Assembly: GCF_029360665.1 (NCBI RefSeq)
Contig: NZ_JARDUB010000002.1
Location: forward strand, 372,001-436,000
Source of the DNA: Eudoraea chungangensis
GTDB lineage: Bacteria; Bacteroidota; Bacteroidia; Flavobacteriales; Flavobacteriaceae
Direction of reading: 5' to 3'
Length of the DNA stretch: 64,000 bases
In this document: piece after piece, positions 14,950 to 45,841 of the stretch
How positions within the stretch are numbered: the first letter of the stretch is position 1
Layout of the letters: every line of letters begins with the position of its first letter
Translations under genes and position numbers: made by a program
The notes under the pieces: generated by a model
Seen by the model: only the letters and a program-made list of their open reading frames with translations
Databases searched by the model: none
Told to the model about the DNA's origin: nothing

Positions 14950-15122
14950 AGCTATTTCTTTATTTTATCTAAGCTTTTAAGTAGAATAAGGATTTATAAA
15001 AATAGATTTCGTCAATAAAAAAACTTCAGCTTTTTTTGGCTGTAATAATATGTTTTAAAATCAGTATCCGGTCTTCTTGCGAGTTGAGTGAAATTCTGCT
15101 TTTTTATTCTATTTCATTTTAC

Positions 15123-18356: not shown

Positions 18357-18366
18357 TAAGCTCAAA

Positions 18367-18502
18367 ACAAGAGGAGGGATTTGGCTGATTGCAACCTCTT
18401 GTGTGGAACAATAACTAGATGTTCTGCCAAAGTAAAATGCTAAACCAGTTCTGCGAATACGTTCGTCTAGCAGTTTACTTTATCACAAAGCTATCAGCCA
18501 AA
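18367..18502 (+). ncRNA. SAM-II-like ('long loops' type) riboswitch in the metK leader
   Basis: P1 is an 8-bp stem, ACAAGAGG (18367-18374) with CCTCTTGT (18395-18402). Its loop holds TTTGGCTGAT (18380-18389), which pairs perfectly over 10 bp with ATCAGCCAAA (18493-18502), forming an H-type pseudoknot. The loop ends in ATTGCAA directly before the P1 3' strand, and AAAGCTA (18487-18493) precedes the P2 3' strand; both resemble conserved SAM-II core sequences. Between P1 and P2 lie two extra hairpins, GAACA/TGTTC and a 17-nt arm (18429-18445 with 18465-18481, two mismatches). P2 ends 19 nt before the metK ATG, which suggests control of translation start. Confidence 0.72.
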
Positions 18503-19825: not shown

Positions 19826-19854
19826 TCTTAGTAAGTTCAACATTTTATTGACAA

Positions 19855-19961
19855 GTTATCAAGAAAGGTGGAGGGAATAGACCCTATGAAACCTTAGCAA
19901 CCCTTTGCTTCTACAGTAAAGAAGGTGCTACATTCTATCATGATTACTCATGAAAGATAAC
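19855..19961 (+). ncRNA. SAM-I riboswitch (S-box) before metY
   Basis: Classic S-box core: P1 strands GTTATC (19855-19860) and GATAAC (19956-19961), AAGAAAGGTGGAGGGA, the kink-turn side GAAACCTTAGCAACC and AAGGTGCTACATTCTA. It controls the metY-metX/AK/HSD-metB genes that follow. Binding of SAM should lower expression. Confidence 0.95.
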
Positions 19962-19997
19962 AATCTGATATTACTTCGGTAACCTATCTTTCTTTTT
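19953..19997 (+). terminator. Probable expression-platform terminator of the first SAM-I riboswitch
   Basis: GAAAGATA (19953-19960) pairs with TATCTTTC (19985-19992), followed by TTTTT. An inner TTAC-TTCG-GTAA tetraloop hairpin lies within. The left strand shares bases with the 3' strand of P1, so the two folds compete. The exact switching logic is not clear from sequence. Confidence 0.55.
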
Positions 19998-32443: not shown

Positions 32444-32468
32444 CGCTAGTTCATTTATAAAATGTTAT

Positions 32469-32583
32469 TGTTATCAAGAAAGGTGGAGGGAATAGACCCG
32501 TTGAAACCTTAGCAACCCTTTACTTTAAAGAAGGTGCTACATTCTACCAATTTTCTAATTTATTAGACCAAGGCTAGATAACA
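32469..32583 (+). ncRNA. SAM-I riboswitch (S-box) before split metH
   Basis: P1 strands TGTTATC (32469-32475) and GATAACA (32577-32583); core AAGAAAGGTGGAGGGA, GAAACCTTAGCAACC and AAGGTGCTACATTCTA, almost identical to the copy at 19855. It lies 159 bp before the first metH gene. It should reduce expression of metH and metF when SAM is plentiful. Confidence 0.95.
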
Positions 32584-32587
32584 CAAA

Positions 32588-40617: not shown

Positions 40618-41523
40618 TTAAAGATTTTTCGTTTGCGTAAGTTCCGTAAACAAAGATTCTAAATTTTTGTTTTTTCGGTTTAGTTGGAGAGTCTTTAATT
40701 TATTGTCATGAGCAAAATCAAATACTACCGGTCGCATATCTTTTGAGGTTTTAAAAGTTATTTCATAGAAGAATCCCGACCGGTTTACGACCTCAGATAC
40801 GTAGGGTAGTTTTTGAAGAAAAGCTTCTTCAACGCGGTAATCAAATTCCACTTCTATTATTTGCTCTTCCTCTGGCCTTAAATCTTTTAGAACTTTATCG
40901 GCTACCAGAACGCCCTTATTGATAATGATTACTCTATTGCAGATCTCTTCGACCTCTTTCATTATATGTGTAGATAATAAAATAGTTTTGTCACTACTTA
41001 TACTCTTAATCAGTTTGCGTATTTCTATGAGTTGGTTTGGATCTAAGCCGGTAGTAGGTTCATCGAGAATTAATACTTCTGGGTTGTGTAACAGAGCCGC
41101 AGCCAGGCCTACTCTTTGTTGGTATCCCTTGGAAAGTGCCCCTATAACCTTATGCGCTTCGGACACTAAACCTACCTGATCAATAACTTCAGAAATTCTA
41201 ACTTTTGATACCCCGTAAAGACTTGCATTAAAGCCTAGATATTCCTTTACATACATTTCGTTGTACAATGGATTGTGTTCTGCAACATAGCCAATACTCT
41301 TTCTAACGGCCAGAGCATCTTTAACGACGTCGTGTTGATTTACTTCAGCTGTACCATCATCCGCAAGGAGGTAAGTCGTAAGAATTTTCATCATGGTAGA
41401 TTTGCCAGCCCCATTCGGACCCAGAAAGCCTACGATTTCTCCTTTGGAAACCTTAAAGGAAACCTTATCTAAAGCTTTTTGTTCTCCGTAATATTTGGTA
41501 ATATTTTGAACACTTAAGGACAT
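40618..41523 (-). CDS. gldA: Gliding motility ABC transporter ATP-binding protein GldA
   Basis: ATPase of 301 residues. Walker A GPNGAGKST, signature LSKGYQQRVG, Walker B LILDEP and a switch His in STHIMKEVEE. It has the C-terminal DUF4162-like extension of ABC-2-type exporters. The overall sequence matches GldA, which works with GldF and GldG in Flavobacteriia; those membrane partners are not here. gldB and gldC are in this window at 59.5 kb. Assigned to gldA by family resemblance; another ABC-2 ATPase is possible. Confidence 0.83.
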   Translation of the reverse strand: MSLSVQNITKYYGEQKALDKVSFKVSKGEIVGFLGPNGAGKSTMMKILTTYLLADDGTAEVNQHDVVKDALAVRKSIGYVAEHNPLYNEMYVKEYLGFNASLYGVSKVRISEVIDQVGLVSEAHKVIGALSKGYQQRVGLAAALLHNPEVLILDEPTTGLDPNQLIEIRKLIKSISSDKTILLSTHIMKEVEEICNRVIIINKGVLVADKVLKDLRPEEEQIIEVEFDYRVEEAFLQKLPYVSEVVNRSGFFYEITFKTSKDMRPVVFDFAHDNKLKTLQLNRKNKNLESLFTELTQTKNL

Positions 41524-41708
41524 AAGTATTTTTTTGTAAAAATAAACATTGTGTGTTTATCCCTGTAAGAGGAGCATTTTTATTTTAGATTATTTTAAAT
41601 AAAGGACTTTAGAGCAATAGTGAATCCGCACAAATCGACTTCTTTTTAAAAAGAAAATGCAAGGAATTAATTTATATCATGAATATTCTTAAAAAGATAC
41701 AGTTTGTC

Positions 41709-41738
41709 TTTGTTTTTTAATTTTAATATTTACCTTAG
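41709..41738 (+). promoter_or_regulatory. Tentative promoter of the aromatic operon leader
   Basis: TTTG at 41709-41712 as -33 and TACCTTAG at 41731-41738 as a partial -7 match, 18 bp apart. This would put the start about 12 nt before the leader-peptide ATG. Confidence 0.35.
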
Positions 41739-41756
41739 CCATTCAATTATACTGAA

Positions 41757-41828
41757 ATGACGCGTAACTATTTTTGGAACAGCTTTTATTTTTACTTCTT
41801 TTTCAAAGAAGTAAGGGGACTGTTTTAG
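41757..41828 (+). CDS. Aromatic-rich leader peptide of the pheA operon (attenuator)
   Basis: A 23-codon reading frame with ATG at 41757 and TAG at 41826-41828. It contains seven Phe, three Tyr and one Trp; residues 10-16 read FYFYFFF and residues 5-7 read YFW. It is followed by an attenuator-like set of hairpins and a terminator right before pheA. The design matches E. coli pheL-type ribosome-mediated attenuation, here with Phe and Tyr as signals. No other plausible gene occupies this 376-bp gap. Confidence 0.78.
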   Translation: MTRNYFWNSFYFYFFFKEVRGLF

Positions 41829-41883
41829 ATTGTTACTAACAAGATATTAAAGTAAGTCCCGTAAAATACGGGACTTTTTTTTA
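41792..41883 (+). promoter_or_regulatory. Attenuator RNA: pause hairpin and antiterminator of the pheA operon
   Basis: Pause hairpin: TTACTTCTTT (41792-41801) pairs perfectly with AAAGAAGTAA (41805-41814); its left strand consists of leader Phe/Tyr codons. Antiterminator: GGGACT (41816-41821) is complementary to AGTCCC (41855-41860), the left arm of the terminator. A TTGTT/AACAA mini-hairpin (41830-41842) lies between. A ribosome stalled on aromatic codons would free the GGGACT strand; one at the stop codon (41826) would cover it. Confidence 0.7.
41855..41883 (+). terminator. Terminator 17 bp before pheA (attenuator 3:4 hairpin)
   Basis: AGTCCCGTA (41855-41863) and TACGGGACT (41867-41875) form a 9-bp perfect stem with an AAA loop, then eight Ts. 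No gene upstream on this strand needs it, since gldA runs the other way, so its target is the pheA transcript itself. Confidence 0.92.
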
Positions 41884-41899
41884 GCAATAGATTGACTGA

Positions 41900-42727
41900 A
41901 TGGGTCTTAAAATAGCAATACAGGGAATTAAAGGATCTAACCATCATCAGGTGGCTCTGGACTATTTTGGAAATGAAATCAACTTAGTGGAATGTTTGTC
42001 TTTTCATAAATTGGTGGATGAATTGTTGAATAAAAAGGCCGATAAAGGAATAATGGCAATAGAAAATTCAATTGCTGGTTCAATTATCCCAAATTATGCC
42101 CTAGTTTACGAGAATAACCTTCACATAATTGGTGAGTATTATTTAAATATTCACCACCACCTTATGGCATTGGAAGGACAGAGTCTTTCAGATTTAAAAG
42201 AAGTGAGATCCCATCCAATGGCTCTTTTACAGTGTAGGGAATTTTTAAAAACCCAATCTCAAATGAAGATGATTGAGGATGTGGATACTGCAGAAACAGC
42301 TAGGAACATCCATGAGAATTCTTTAAAAGGAGTTGCCGCGATTGCCCCTAAAGTAGCTGCCAACTTGTACGATCTTAAAATCGTAAAAGATAATATCCAG
42401 ACCATTCACAATAATTCTACTCGCTTTATAATCGTAAAAACACAGAATAAAGAACTGCCCATTGAAGAGATAAACAAAGCATCTCTCCGATTTATAACAG
42501 ACCACAAAAGAGGAAGTTTGGCTACCGCTTTAAATGTAATGAGCGATTGTAATTTGAATTTAACCAAAATCCAGTCTTTACCCATAATTGAGACACCTTG
42601 GAAATATGCTTTTTTTGTTGATGTCACTTTCGAAAAATACGAGGACTTTGCTAAATCGAAGGCGCTTTTGGCTATAATGTTAGAAGATTTTAAAGTCTTA
42701 GGAGAATATAAAAATGCCCGGTTATGA
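41900..42727 (+). CDS. pheA: Prephenate dehydratase
   Basis: Makes phenylpyruvate; 275 residues. Catalytic domain residues 1 to about 180 (GIKGSNHHQVALDYF start, MAIENSIAGSIIPNY, and NSTRFIIVK). A C-terminal ACT domain (about 195-275; HKRGSLATALNVMSDCNLNLTKIQSLP) would bind phenylalanine. There is no fused chorismate mutase; that lies on the DAHP synthase. It is the first gene after the attenuator and overlaps the next start by 4 bp. Confidence 0.94.
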   Translation: MGLKIAIQGIKGSNHHQVALDYFGNEINLVECLSFHKLVDELLNKKADKGIMAIENSIAGSIIPNYALVYENNLHIIGEYYLNIHHHLMALEGQSLSDLKEVRSHPMALLQCREFLKTQSQMKMIEDVDTAETARNIHENSLKGVAAIAPKVAANLYDLKIVKDNIQTIHNNSTRFIIVKTQNKELPIEEINKASLRFITDHKRGSLATALNVMSDCNLNLTKIQSLPIIETPWKYAFFVDVTFEKYEDFAKSKALLAIMLEDFKVLGEYKNARL

Positions 42728-43875
42728 TAGAAAAGGCAAAAAGACTGCAAACGGTAGAAGAATACTATTTCTCAAAAAAGCTGAGAGAGGTTCGCGCCTT
42801 AGTACAAGCTGGGAAACCCGTAATAAACATGGGAATTGGAAGTCCGGATCTGCCTCCCTCAGAGGAAGTTATTTCGGCACTTAAAAGTTCATTGCACGAC
42901 CCTAAAGCACATCAATATCAGAGTTATCAGGGCCTGCCCGAGCTTAGAGAGGCTATAGTAGAGTTTTATAAAACACAGTTTGAGGTTAGTCTGGATGCTG
43001 CTGCTGAAGTACTTCCCCTAATGGGATCTAAAGAAGGGATTATGCATATAAGTCTTGCCTTCTTAAACCCAGGGGACGAGGTTTTGATTCCTAATCCGGG
43101 ATATCCTACATATACTTCTGTTTCAAAATTAGTTGGGGCTAAAATTAGAGAGTACAACTTATTAGAATCGAATGCCTGGTTACCAGATTTATCTGCCTTG
43201 GAAAAACAAGACCTTTCAAAAGTTAAATTGATGTGGACAAGCTATCCACACATGCCAACAGGCGCTACGGCAGATTTAAAGGATTTAAGAAAGTTGGTTG
43301 AATTTGCTGAGAAGCATAATATTTTATTGGTGAATGATAATCCGTATAGCTTTGTTTTATGCGAAAATCCAACAAGCCTTTTAAGTATTGCTGCCGCCAA
43401 GAATTCTGTTTTAGAATTAAATTCATTGAGTAAGACCTTTAATATGGCGGGTTGGCGTGTAGGAATGGTTTTAGGAGGTGCAGATAATATTAACGCCATT
43501 CTTAAAGTAAAAAGCAATATGGATTCAGGTATGTTTTATGGGATCCAGAAAGGAGCTATTGCCGCATTAAATAGTGCGGAGAATTGGTATAATTCGCTAA
43601 ATGAACTTTATAAGTCTAGAAGGAATAAAATGTTTCATTTAGCAGATCTTTTGGGGTGCTCGTACGACAAAGAAGCTGCCGGAATGTTTGTTTGGGCCAA
43701 ATTACCCGAAGCGAAGGAAGGTTCCGAGCAGTTTATTGATAGAATATTGAAAGAGAAGGATATCTTCATTGCCCCTGGTACCATTTTTGGAACCAATGGC
43801 GAAGGATATATACGGTTTTCACTCTGTGTTAGTGAGGAGAAGATTGAAGAAGCCATAAAACGTTTCGCGAACTAA
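42724..43875 (+). CDS. Class I/II PLP aminotransferase (aromatic pathway)
   Basis: A 383-residue fold-type I aminotransferase. GIGSPDLPPSEEV, NPGYPTYTS, NDNPYSFV, and the Schiff-base lysine in NSLSKTFNMAGWRVG. Its ATGA start overlaps pheA, implying coupled synthesis. In this setting it likely aminates phenylpyruvate and hydroxyphenylpyruvate (or prephenate); specificity is inferred from context only. Confidence 0.9.
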   Translation: MIEKAKRLQTVEEYYFSKKLREVRALVQAGKPVINMGIGSPDLPPSEEVISALKSSLHDPKAHQYQSYQGLPELREAIVEFYKTQFEVSLDAAAEVLPLMGSKEGIMHISLAFLNPGDEVLIPNPGYPTYTSVSKLVGAKIREYNLLESNAWLPDLSALEKQDLSKVKLMWTSYPHMPTGATADLKDLRKLVEFAEKHNILLVNDNPYSFVLCENPTSLLSIAAAKNSVLELNSLSKTFNMAGWRVGMVLGGADNINAILKVKSNMDSGMFYGIQKGAIAALNSAENWYNSLNELYKSRRNKMFHLADLLGCSYDKEAAGMFVWAKLPEAKEGSEQFIDRILKEKDIFIAPGTIFGTNGEGYIRFSLCVSEEKIEEAIKRFAN

Positions 43876-43886
43876 GTAAAGCAAAA

Positions 43887-44753
43887 ATGAAAGTAGTAAT
43901 CGTTGGTGTTGGGCTAATCGGAGGCTCTATTGCAAGAGACTTAAAAGCAGGGTATTCCAATATTAGTATTAAAGGAGTTGATATTAATAAGGAGTATTTA
44001 GAACAAGCTCTTGAATTAGGATTAATGGATGGTTTGGCAACAGACACCGATTTGGCGGAGGCCGACATTGTATTTGTTTGTATTCCGGTTAACGCCATTG
44101 TCCAAGACCTTCCAAAAATTTTAGATAAGGTAGGCGAGGAAACCTTGGTAATAGATGCTGGTTCTACAAAATTGGAAATATGTAAAACAGTAGATCAGCA
44201 TCCTAAAAGAAGAAACTTTTTGGCATGTCACCCTATCGCAGGTACAGAATACTCTGGCCCGGAAGCAGCAATTTTAGAACTTTATAAAGGGAAGACAAAC
44301 ATAATTTGTGAAGTGGAGAAAACTGCCTTTAGACTACAAGAGAAAGCCTTGGATATTTTTAAAAATATGGGGATGCGAATTCGCTATATGAATCCGGAGT
44401 CTCACGATAAGCATATTGCCTATGTTTCTCATTTATCGCACATAAGTTCTTTTATGTTAGGAAAAACAGTTATTCAGAAGGAAAAGAATGAAAGAGATAT
44501 TTTTGATATGGCAGGTAGTGGTTTTGAAAGTACCGTTAGACTAGCAAAAAGTTCTCCGGCCATGTGGACTCCTATATTTCAACAAAATAAGAGTAATATT
44601 GTGGAAATTTTAGAGGCTTATATTCAGAATTTAGAAGATTTTAAGGACTTGCTAGTGCAGGATAATTATGAGGCTGTTTTTGAAGAAATGGCGAATACAA
44701 ATAAAATAAAAGAAATATTAATTGGAATACCGCAACAAAGTAAAGAGAAATAA
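43887..44753 (+). CDS. tyrA: Prephenate dehydrogenase
   Basis: NAD(P)-dependent step to tyrosine; 288 residues. N-terminal dinucleotide motif VGVGLIGGSIARDLK, active-site HPIAGTEYSGP, and the helical domain with SHLSHISSFML. There is no fused chorismate mutase or clear ACT domain. It lies 11 bp after the aminotransferase. Confidence 0.94.
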   Translation: MKVVIVGVGLIGGSIARDLKAGYSNISIKGVDINKEYLEQALELGLMDGLATDTDLAEADIVFVCIPVNAIVQDLPKILDKVGEETLVIDAGSTKLEICKTVDQHPKRRNFLACHPIAGTEYSGPEAAILELYKGKTNIICEVEKTAFRLQEKALDIFKNMGMRIRYMNPESHDKHIAYVSHLSHISSFMLGKTVIQKEKNERDIFDMAGSGFESTVRLAKSSPAMWTPIFQQNKSNIVEILEAYIQNLEDFKDLLVQDNYEAVFEEMANTNKIKEILIGIPQQSKEK

Positions 44754-44755
44754 GA

Positions 44756-45841
44756 ATGGAAAATAAAAAAGAATTAAGATCTTGGTTAGATGAGATGAAC
44801 TTGGCTCATCCTTTAGTAATTGCAGGTCCGTGTAGTGCCGAAACAGAAGAACAGGTATTAGGAATTGCTCATGATTTAAAAGATACCGATGTAAATTATT
44901 ACCGGGCCGGTATATGGAAGCCTAGAACCAGACCGGGTAATTTTGAAGGCGTTGGAGCCATCGGCCTTAAATGGTTGCAAAAAGTTAAGGCCGAAACGGG
45001 CTTAAAAACTGCAACAGAGGTTGCCAATAGAGCTCATGTAGATCTAGCCCTTGAGCATGACGTAGATTTATTGTGGATCGGAGCACGTTCTACAGTAAGT
45101 CCTTTTATTGTTCAAGAAATAGCAGATGCTTTGGAAGGCACCGATAAAGTTGTTCTAGTTAAGAACCCGGTAAATCCAGACTTATCCCTTTGGTTGGGCG
45201 CTATTGAAAGACTTTACACTGCGGATATTAAAAAGTTAGGGGTAATCCACCGCGGGTTTTCTAGTTATGAAAAAACAAAATACAGAAATATTCCTGAATG
45301 GCAGATGGCAATTGAACTACAAACTAAATTTCCAGATTTACCATTAATTAACGACCCTTCCCATATTACTGGGAATAGGAATATGATTTTTGATGTCTCT
45401 CAAACTGCTTTGGATTTGAATTTTGATGGATTAATGATTGAGACACATCACGATCCTGATAATGCTTGGAGCGATGCTGCACAGCAGGTTACGCCAAAAA
45501 ATTTAGTTCAAATCATGGAAGACTTAAAAATTAGAAAAGAGACCGACGAGGAAGCAGATTACAATCAGAAAATAAGTAATCTAAGAGCACAGATTGATAT
45601 TATCGACAACCAATTATTAGATTTTTTAGGTAAAAGAATGAAAGTTTCTGACGGAATAGGGGAGCTTAAAAAACAAAGAAATGTTGCCGTTTTACAGACC
45701 AATAGGTGGAATTCTATCCTTGGAAAAATGATTTTAGAAGGAGAAACCAAAGGCTTAAGCGAAGAGTTTGTTCTAAAATTATTTAAGGCTATTCATCAGG
45801 AATCTATAAACCATCAAGAAAAAATAATCAATGCTGGCTAA
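44756..45841 (+). CDS. Bifunctional DAHP synthase / chorismate mutase (type II order)
   Basis: A 361-residue fusion. Residues 1 to about 265 are a DAHP synthase of the KDSA-like subfamily (GPCSAETEEQV, RAGIWKPRTRPGNFEG, NDPSHITGNRN, IETHHDPDNAWSD). From about 270 an AroQ-type chorismate mutase follows (NLRAQIDIIDNQLLDFLGKR, then VLQTNRW). It commits carbon to the shikimate pathway and makes prephenate for pheA and tyrA. As the last gene of an attenuated operon, its supply would respond to Phe/Tyr levels. Confidence 0.94.
   Translation: MENKKELRSWLDEMNLAHPLVIAGPCSAETEEQVLGIAHDLKDTDVNYYRAGIWKPRTRPGNFEGVGAIGLKWLQKVKAETGLKTATEVANRAHVDLALEHDVDLLWIGARSTVSPFIVQEIADALEGTDKVVLVKNPVNPDLSLWLGAIERLYTADIKKLGVIHRGFSSYEKTKYRNIPEWQMAIELQTKFPDLPLINDPSHITGNRNMIFDVSQTALDLNFDGLMIETHHDPDNAWSDAAQQVTPKNLVQIMEDLKIRKETDEEADYNQKISNLRAQIDIIDNQLLDFLGKRMKVSDGIGELKKQRNVAVLQTNRWNSILGKMILEGETKGLSEEFVLKLFKAIHQESINHQEKIINAG

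Follow-up and report, generated by a model that had tools for sequence, protein, structure and literature searches.

Organisation of the pheA locus

The window, i.e. the entire 64,000-nucleotide stretch of Eudoraea chungangensis DNA analysed here, derives from a 3.7-Mb genome that is near-complete (99.97%) and harbours an operon composed, as the earlier note had read it, of pheA, an aminotransferase gene, tyrA and a gene coding for a DAHP synthase-chorismate mutase (Table 1). These assignments are borne out by Pfam; among the NCBIfam matches listed, tyrA alone of the four operon genes passes its cut-off. PF00793 has a single further match in the genome, a KDO-8-P synthase, and PF01474 has none, so that the DAHP synthase encoded in the operon is the only one detected there. 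Upstream of pheA, gldA runs in the opposite direction, as had also been stated. In several genomes assigned to the same genus, the 200 bases preceding pheA are identical to those of named Eudoraea records, including E. adriatica DSM 19308.

The short frame in front of pheA codes for 23 amino acids, 11 of them aromatic when Trp is included, and contains the run of seven consecutive aromatic codons reported before. The 10-bp pause hairpin was likewise found in its place, with an extension at its base, and the six bases of strand 2, located at the end of the frame, are indeed complementary to strand 3 (AGTCCC, 41855-41860) in the left arm of the terminator. The latter had been described as a 9-bp stem followed by eight T residues; the T run stands (41875-41882, at the 3' side of the terminator), and the stem measures 10 bp by the terminator scan. 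From the end of the terminator (41876) to the ATG of pheA (41900) there are 23 bp. Folding of positions 41740-41892 gives -38.9 kcal/mol versus a mean of -22.8 for shuffled sequences (z = -4.95). Further upstream lies a promoter-like pair of motifs that is presumably of the Bacteroidota -33/-7 type; over 127 sequences there were 103 matches to a TAnnTTA-like motif starting 24-30 nt 5' of the leader ATG. Elsewhere in the window, one SAM-II and two SAM-I riboswitches (18365-18453, 19853-19963 and 32468-32584) are found within 15 kb.

Table 1. Features of the pheA locus of Eudoraea chungangensis, in window coordinates
Feature	Position	Strand	Evidence
gldA	40618-41523	opposite to pheA	TIGR03522 above cut-off
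Promoter-like pair: TTTG (41709-41712), 18-nt spacer, TACCTTAG (41731-41738)	41709-41738	+	sequence
Leader peptide ORF, MTRNYFWNSFYFYFFFKEVRGLF	41757-41828	+	sequence, ORF translation; conserved in relatives
Basal extension of 1:2 hairpin, AACAG (41778-41782) / CTGTT (41820-41824)	41778-41824	+	fold; 71-79% of cells paired
Regulatory codon run FYFYFFF, codons 10-16	41784-41804	+	translation, stall scan, substitution counts
Apical 1:2 (pause) hairpin, TTACTTCTTT / AAAGAAGTAA	41792-41801 / 41805-41814	+	sequence, fold, 44-sequence alignment
Strand 2 (antiterminator), GGGACT, within end of leader ORF	41816-41821	+	sequence, pairing tests
Intrinsic terminator (strands 3 and 4), AAGTCCCGTA-AAA-TACGGGACTT	41854-41876	+	terminator scan, 10 bp
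pheA, prephenate dehydratase	41900-42727	+	PF00800 above cut-off; best NCBIfam match below cut-off
Class I/II aminotransferase	42724-43875	+	PF00155
tyrA, prephenate dehydrogenase	43887-44753	+	PF02153, PF20463; NF006307 above cut-off
DAHP synthase-chorismate mutase	44756-45841	+	PF00793 and PF01817 above cut-off; NCBIfam matches below cut-off

Distribution of the leader across the class

Upstream regions were drawn from a first set of genomes, in which pheA was matched in 73 out of 99, from a class-wide draw (72 out of 247) and from 80 named loci kept from 552 relatives. Partial or weak pheA matches in G008, G095 and G121 were left out of the sample, loci in which tblastn could not place the gene (L149-L151) or the start was not found (L202) were dropped, and 13 duplicates were merged, which left 203 distinct upstream regions for scoring. 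A leader was called where an ORF 10-45 codons long contained five or more Phe or Tyr codons in a stretch of ten and a terminator followed 5-70 nt downstream.

By this rule, 172 of the 203 regions carry a Phe/Tyr-rich ORF with a terminator. Calls were made in 127 of the 135 regions of the first set, which consists mostly of Flavobacteriaceae, and in 45 of the 68 from the class-wide draw, where they represent 16 of 25 families; the first set contributes families f2, f3, f9 and f15 as further carriers. The same rule gave only six calls in 2030 dinucleotide shuffles and five in 2358 other pieces from the same loci, and across the window it returned the pheA leader together with two more frames, at 15084 and 38643, that both start with a codon other than ATG. 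Judged by sequence, the leader arrangement therefore extends across a large part of the class and is not confined to the group considered in the earlier note.

Among the 31 regions lacking a call, several nevertheless contain a leader or part of one: in L029 it is present about 500 bp upstream of pheA, in L139 the terminator loop is longer, in L196 and L203 a leader is seen with its terminator uncalled, and in L171, L174 and L176 the aromatic run is shorter. The region of L116 ends at a contig edge. Upstream of pheA in the remaining 23, no ATG frame rich in aromatic codons and followed by a terminator was found. These include all eight genomes of family f27 (L247 and L292-L298), in none of which a DAHP synthase gene was seen within about 5 kb read from pheA onward.

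A covariance model built from 44 leaders was in addition searched in 60 genomes independently of the position of pheA, some of these genomes having supplied sequences for the model. It matched in 43 of them at E-values up to 0.1; in 35 of the 60 the best match reached 3.2e-5 or better, and every one of these lies upstream of pheA. Weak matches at pheA were seen in G034 and G021, and most of the remaining weak matches, which are located away from pheA, are probably due to chance. Of 12 stretches inspected, nine are such sites away from pheA, with E-values from 7.5e-4 to 0.04, and an aromatic ORF followed by a terminator was present in one (L235 of genome G082, MYVYYLKYTFLYSPAFEKNGTITIFQ) and in none of the other eight.

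The same genome G082 carries three tandem units of leader and terminator (L246/L232, about 300-735) upstream of a pheA frame of 185 codons only, in an operon with no detected tyrA. Units two and three contain Phe but no Tyr codons, and unit one is Phe-only when read from an inner ATG, a longer start adding two Tyr codons; the covariance model matched units two and three only. In G022 (L236, 203-331), which accounts for the distant leader of L029, a distance of about 500 bp separates pheA from the leader and terminator upstream of it, and repeated sequence of the type GGCGGGAT is found in between.

Strand pairing and covariation

The alignment across relatives that the earlier note had proposed as a check confirms the conservation of the aromatic frame and reveals covariation in the 1:2 and 3:4 helices taken as a whole. 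Over 44 sequences, 94.5% of the cells of the terminator are paired, with changes on both sides in seven of its ten pairs. The two parts of the apical 1:2 hairpin have 73% and 64% of cells paired, two of its ten pairs being mostly unpaired. In the two helices combined, changes on both sides are seen in 63 cells, versus 27 in shuffles.

For the 2:3 helix, a plain MAFFT alignment, in which some rows are one column out of register, gave no excess of covariation (166 of 500 shuffles were as high). Strands 2 and 3 come in lineage-specific pairs such as GGGACT/AGTCCC, CGAGAC/GTCTCG, AAGGCT/AGCCTT and GAGCGGTC/GACCGCTC, with others besides; altogether 92 distinct 2:3 helices were counted, and only three of 166 leaders gave none. 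In alignment-free permutation tests that ignore phylogeny, the strand 2 regions of 172 leaders scored a mean of 17.72 against their own strand 3 and 13.84 (sd 0.22) against permuted partners; with a single leader for each of 20 families the values were 17.27 and 12.36 (sd 0.76), and none of 5000 permutations was as high. Even the differing peptide tails TGLL, NETLYV, GSVV and GNLYV are each encoded by a sequence complementary to its own terminator. By these alignment-free tests, the predicted antiterminator is mutually exclusive with the terminator, and its pairing is kept across lineages.

Codon content and selection

Substitutions in codons 10-16 were counted for 78 leaders of 23 codons on the pheA tree. 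The core underwent 38 synonymous, 12 Phe-Tyr and nine other changes, so that Phe-Tyr exchanges make up 12 of 21 amino acid changes versus an expected one in eight (p = 1.4e-6), the expectation being that a neutral one-step change yields one Phe-Tyr exchange per seven others. The nine other changes include no Phe-Leu and one Phe-Ser exchange. Leu or Ser codons reached by pyrimidine changes would still pair with purines and are nevertheless scarce, so that RNA pairing alone does not explain the Phe-Tyr excess.

These counts bear on two other explanations of the frame. It might code for a functional small aromatic-rich (membrane) peptide, the terminator being a separate, constitutive element, and the strong conservation of the aromatic amino acids in the core would fit such a product. 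However, Phe and Tyr swap within the core, the residues behind it follow RNA pairing and not peptide identity, and the strong whole-genome matches of the covariance model sit before pheA, so that we regard a functional peptide as very improbable. The same holds for a sensor made of RNA only, i.e. a riboswitch, T-box or protein-bound leader in which the frame would be incidental: no Rfam riboswitch or T-box model matches at the leader site (aptamers having been covered by Rfam only), and conservation is codon-wise, as the excess of synonymous over amino acid changes demonstrates, although a ligand or protein could in principle switch between terminator and antiterminator unaided. A leader read by the ribosome is the explanation pursued below.

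Outside the core, leader position 7 is occupied by Trp in 49, by Tyr or Phe in 28 and by Asn in one of the 78 leaders, and a Trp codon occurs in 95 of the 172 leaders. The amino acids sensed would accordingly be Phe and Tyr, and perhaps Trp. That Tyr codons mark the presence of tyrA was considered but found no support: of the 12 leader operons that have sufficient sequence downstream and in which tyrA was not detected, 11 keep Tyr, G082 being the exception; a thirteenth, L268, ends at a contig edge.

With regard to the DAHP synthase gene, aroF was found within the stretch read in all 39 leader-bearing operons and in nine of 24 without a leader, eight of the 24 leaderless ones belonging to one family and the leader genomes having been chosen to spread families. 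This count used a looser rule (four Phe or Tyr codons in ten) and left out the named loci L032-L111; L275, whose upstream stretch is cut, was set as leader-bearing by hand, L290 was dropped as cut short, aroF of L281 lies about 2 kb after tyrA, and in L305 a single ORF is matched by both models. An association of the leader with the DAHP synthase gene is thus suggested only.

Proposed mechanism and modelled ribosome stalling

Taking together the frame, its conservation, the strand pairing and the placement of the codons, all of which are established by sequence and comparison, we infer a promoter, translation of the leader, stalling, termination and read-through, and propose a ribosome-mediated transcription attenuator at pheA, a reading to which we would assign a probability of about 90%. 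RNA polymerase would start at about 41745, with a ribosome translating the 23-codon leader close behind. When Phe- or Tyr-tRNA is scarce, the ribosome would stall in FYFYFFF and leave strand 2 free to pair with the emerging strand 3, by which formation of the terminator would be delayed and the operon from pheA to the DAHP synthase gene transcribed. With charged tRNAs, the ribosome would reach the stop codon and cover strand 2, the 3:4 terminator would form and transcription would end near 41882.

This scheme was explored by a stall scan, in which the ribosome was placed at each codon in turn and the RNA 3' of it was folded as far as strand 3 reaches, i.e. thermodynamically and before strand 4 is made. 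Along the aromatic run, the mean probability of the 2:3 helix in 166 leaders fell from 0.97 to 0.76 (codons -14 to -8 counted from the stop); it was 0.23 at codon -6 and 0.00 at the stop codon and the two codons before it. In the model, a ribosome stalled at the aromatic run thus frees strand 2, and one at the stop codon covers it. In the full-length Eudoraea sequence at equilibrium, however, the 3:4 terminator is favoured at every ribosome position (P = 0.91-0.93), and antitermination would therefore have to be kinetic; the folding results make a kinetic switch more likely than an equilibrium one. Furthermore, the 2:3 helix of the Eudoraea sequence has a probability of 0.71 without a ribosome and of 1.0 on an early stall, and the averages without a ribosome are 0.72 for 2:3 before strand 4 and 0.89 for the terminator in the full transcript. 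As 2:3 still forms without a ribosome or on an early stall, the 1:2 hairpin is no clear protector, and its influence in the model is small.

A terminator that always forms at equilibrium would also be in line with control at the level of translation or RNA decay, by uORF coupling or Rho instead of intrinsic termination, and the position of the ribosome might alter RNA stability as well. Against this, the terminator with its T tract is conserved with covariation and the antiterminator strand is matched to it, which leaves such control hardly more probable than the two explanations dismissed above. Within the attenuation reading, one may go further and envisage a class-old, pan-aromatic attenuator in which Phe, Tyr and often Trp codons are interchangeable, which acts on the pathway at its entry enzyme, the only DAHP synthase detected, and which is purely kinetic without a working protector, so that an untranslated leader would read through unlike that of E. 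coli; we consider this extended version possible but rather doubtful.

Relation to known attenuators

The E. coli pheL/pheA system (RF01859) resembles the Eudoraea locus in its Phe-rich short ORF, terminator, antiterminator and prephenate dehydratase gene, and in the same model its 2:3 helix likewise forms on stalls at aromatic codons. The claim of a pheL-like logic reading both Phe and Tyr is accordingly supported by frame conservation, by the pairing of strands 2, 3 and 4 and by codon placement, but the details differ from E. coli. Leaders of the Eudoraea type have mixed Phe and Tyr, often also Trp codons, whereas pheL has Phe alone; in pheL the 2:3 helix outcompetes the terminator at most Phe codons under equilibrium conditions, in Eudoraea never; stalls at codons 2 and 3 block 2:3 in pheL, and no such effect is seen with the weak protector of Eudoraea; and tyrA and the DAHP synthase gene, which belong to the pheA operon in Eudoraea, lie on the other strand in E. 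coli. The Phe leader model RF01859 aligns over its full length to the Eudoraea leader with 21.6 bits (gathering threshold 55, E = 0.16), and the Trp and Thr leader models of Rfam score similarly at the same site (21.3 and 21.2). At the gathering threshold, no Rfam model matches the pheA leader in the window or in the loci of five relatives scanned. Within the same phylum, the Bacteroid-trp leader (RF01692) is also a leader-peptide RNA, but with Trp codons and in front of another operon, and it has no match at 41700-41950 up to an E-value of 10.

The earlier note knew of no described case in this group; this Trp leader and published work on pheA are, however, on record. According to parts of PMC9723704, a study of Flavobacterium psychrophilum from 2021, a conserved structured 5' element lies upstream of pheA, is present in other genera of the Flavobacteriaceae and has no Rfam hit, and there are clues to leader peptides upstream of amino acid operons; these main-text parts mention no peptide, codons, antiterminator or range past the family for the pheA element, which very probably is the same as the Eudoraea leader. 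Short ORFs resembling leader peptides have also been noted in 5' UTRs of Bacteroides thetaiotaomicron (PMC7366714). In the literature covered, which extended to few subscription journals, no detailed description of the pheA leader was recognised. The work of Lopatovskaya from 2010 is said to include Bacteroidetes. Hence the type of attenuation is known and the element itself had in part been noticed; what sets this leader apart is its mixture of aromatic codons.

If the attenuator reading is true, these leaders would constitute a conserved aromatic leader-peptide RNA family for the class, linked to the enzyme through which the pathway is entered, and would offer ready targets for studying kinetic versus equilibrium attenuation. 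Classical attenuation might then be a general mode of control, with his, trp and phe/tyr leaders in one genome, in bacteria whose ribosomes do not recognise Shine-Dalgarno sequences (PMC9976891).

Other amino acid leaders in the genome

Upstream of the two ilvD-family genes of the Eudoraea genome no leader and terminator with a matching codon run were found, nor were a leader and terminator present in the 500 nt upstream of either of its two homoserine dehydrogenase genes. Before hisG (L221, 1200-1309), a His-rich leader, MKNKSIHHHLYTGTQAR, is followed by a terminator and has no Rfam match at the gathering threshold. Before trpE (L222, 2039-2156, minus strand), there is a Trp leader with a terminator, MKKTIVNTWWWNLLRQTS, which matches RF01692 with 75.1 bits versus a threshold of 49.
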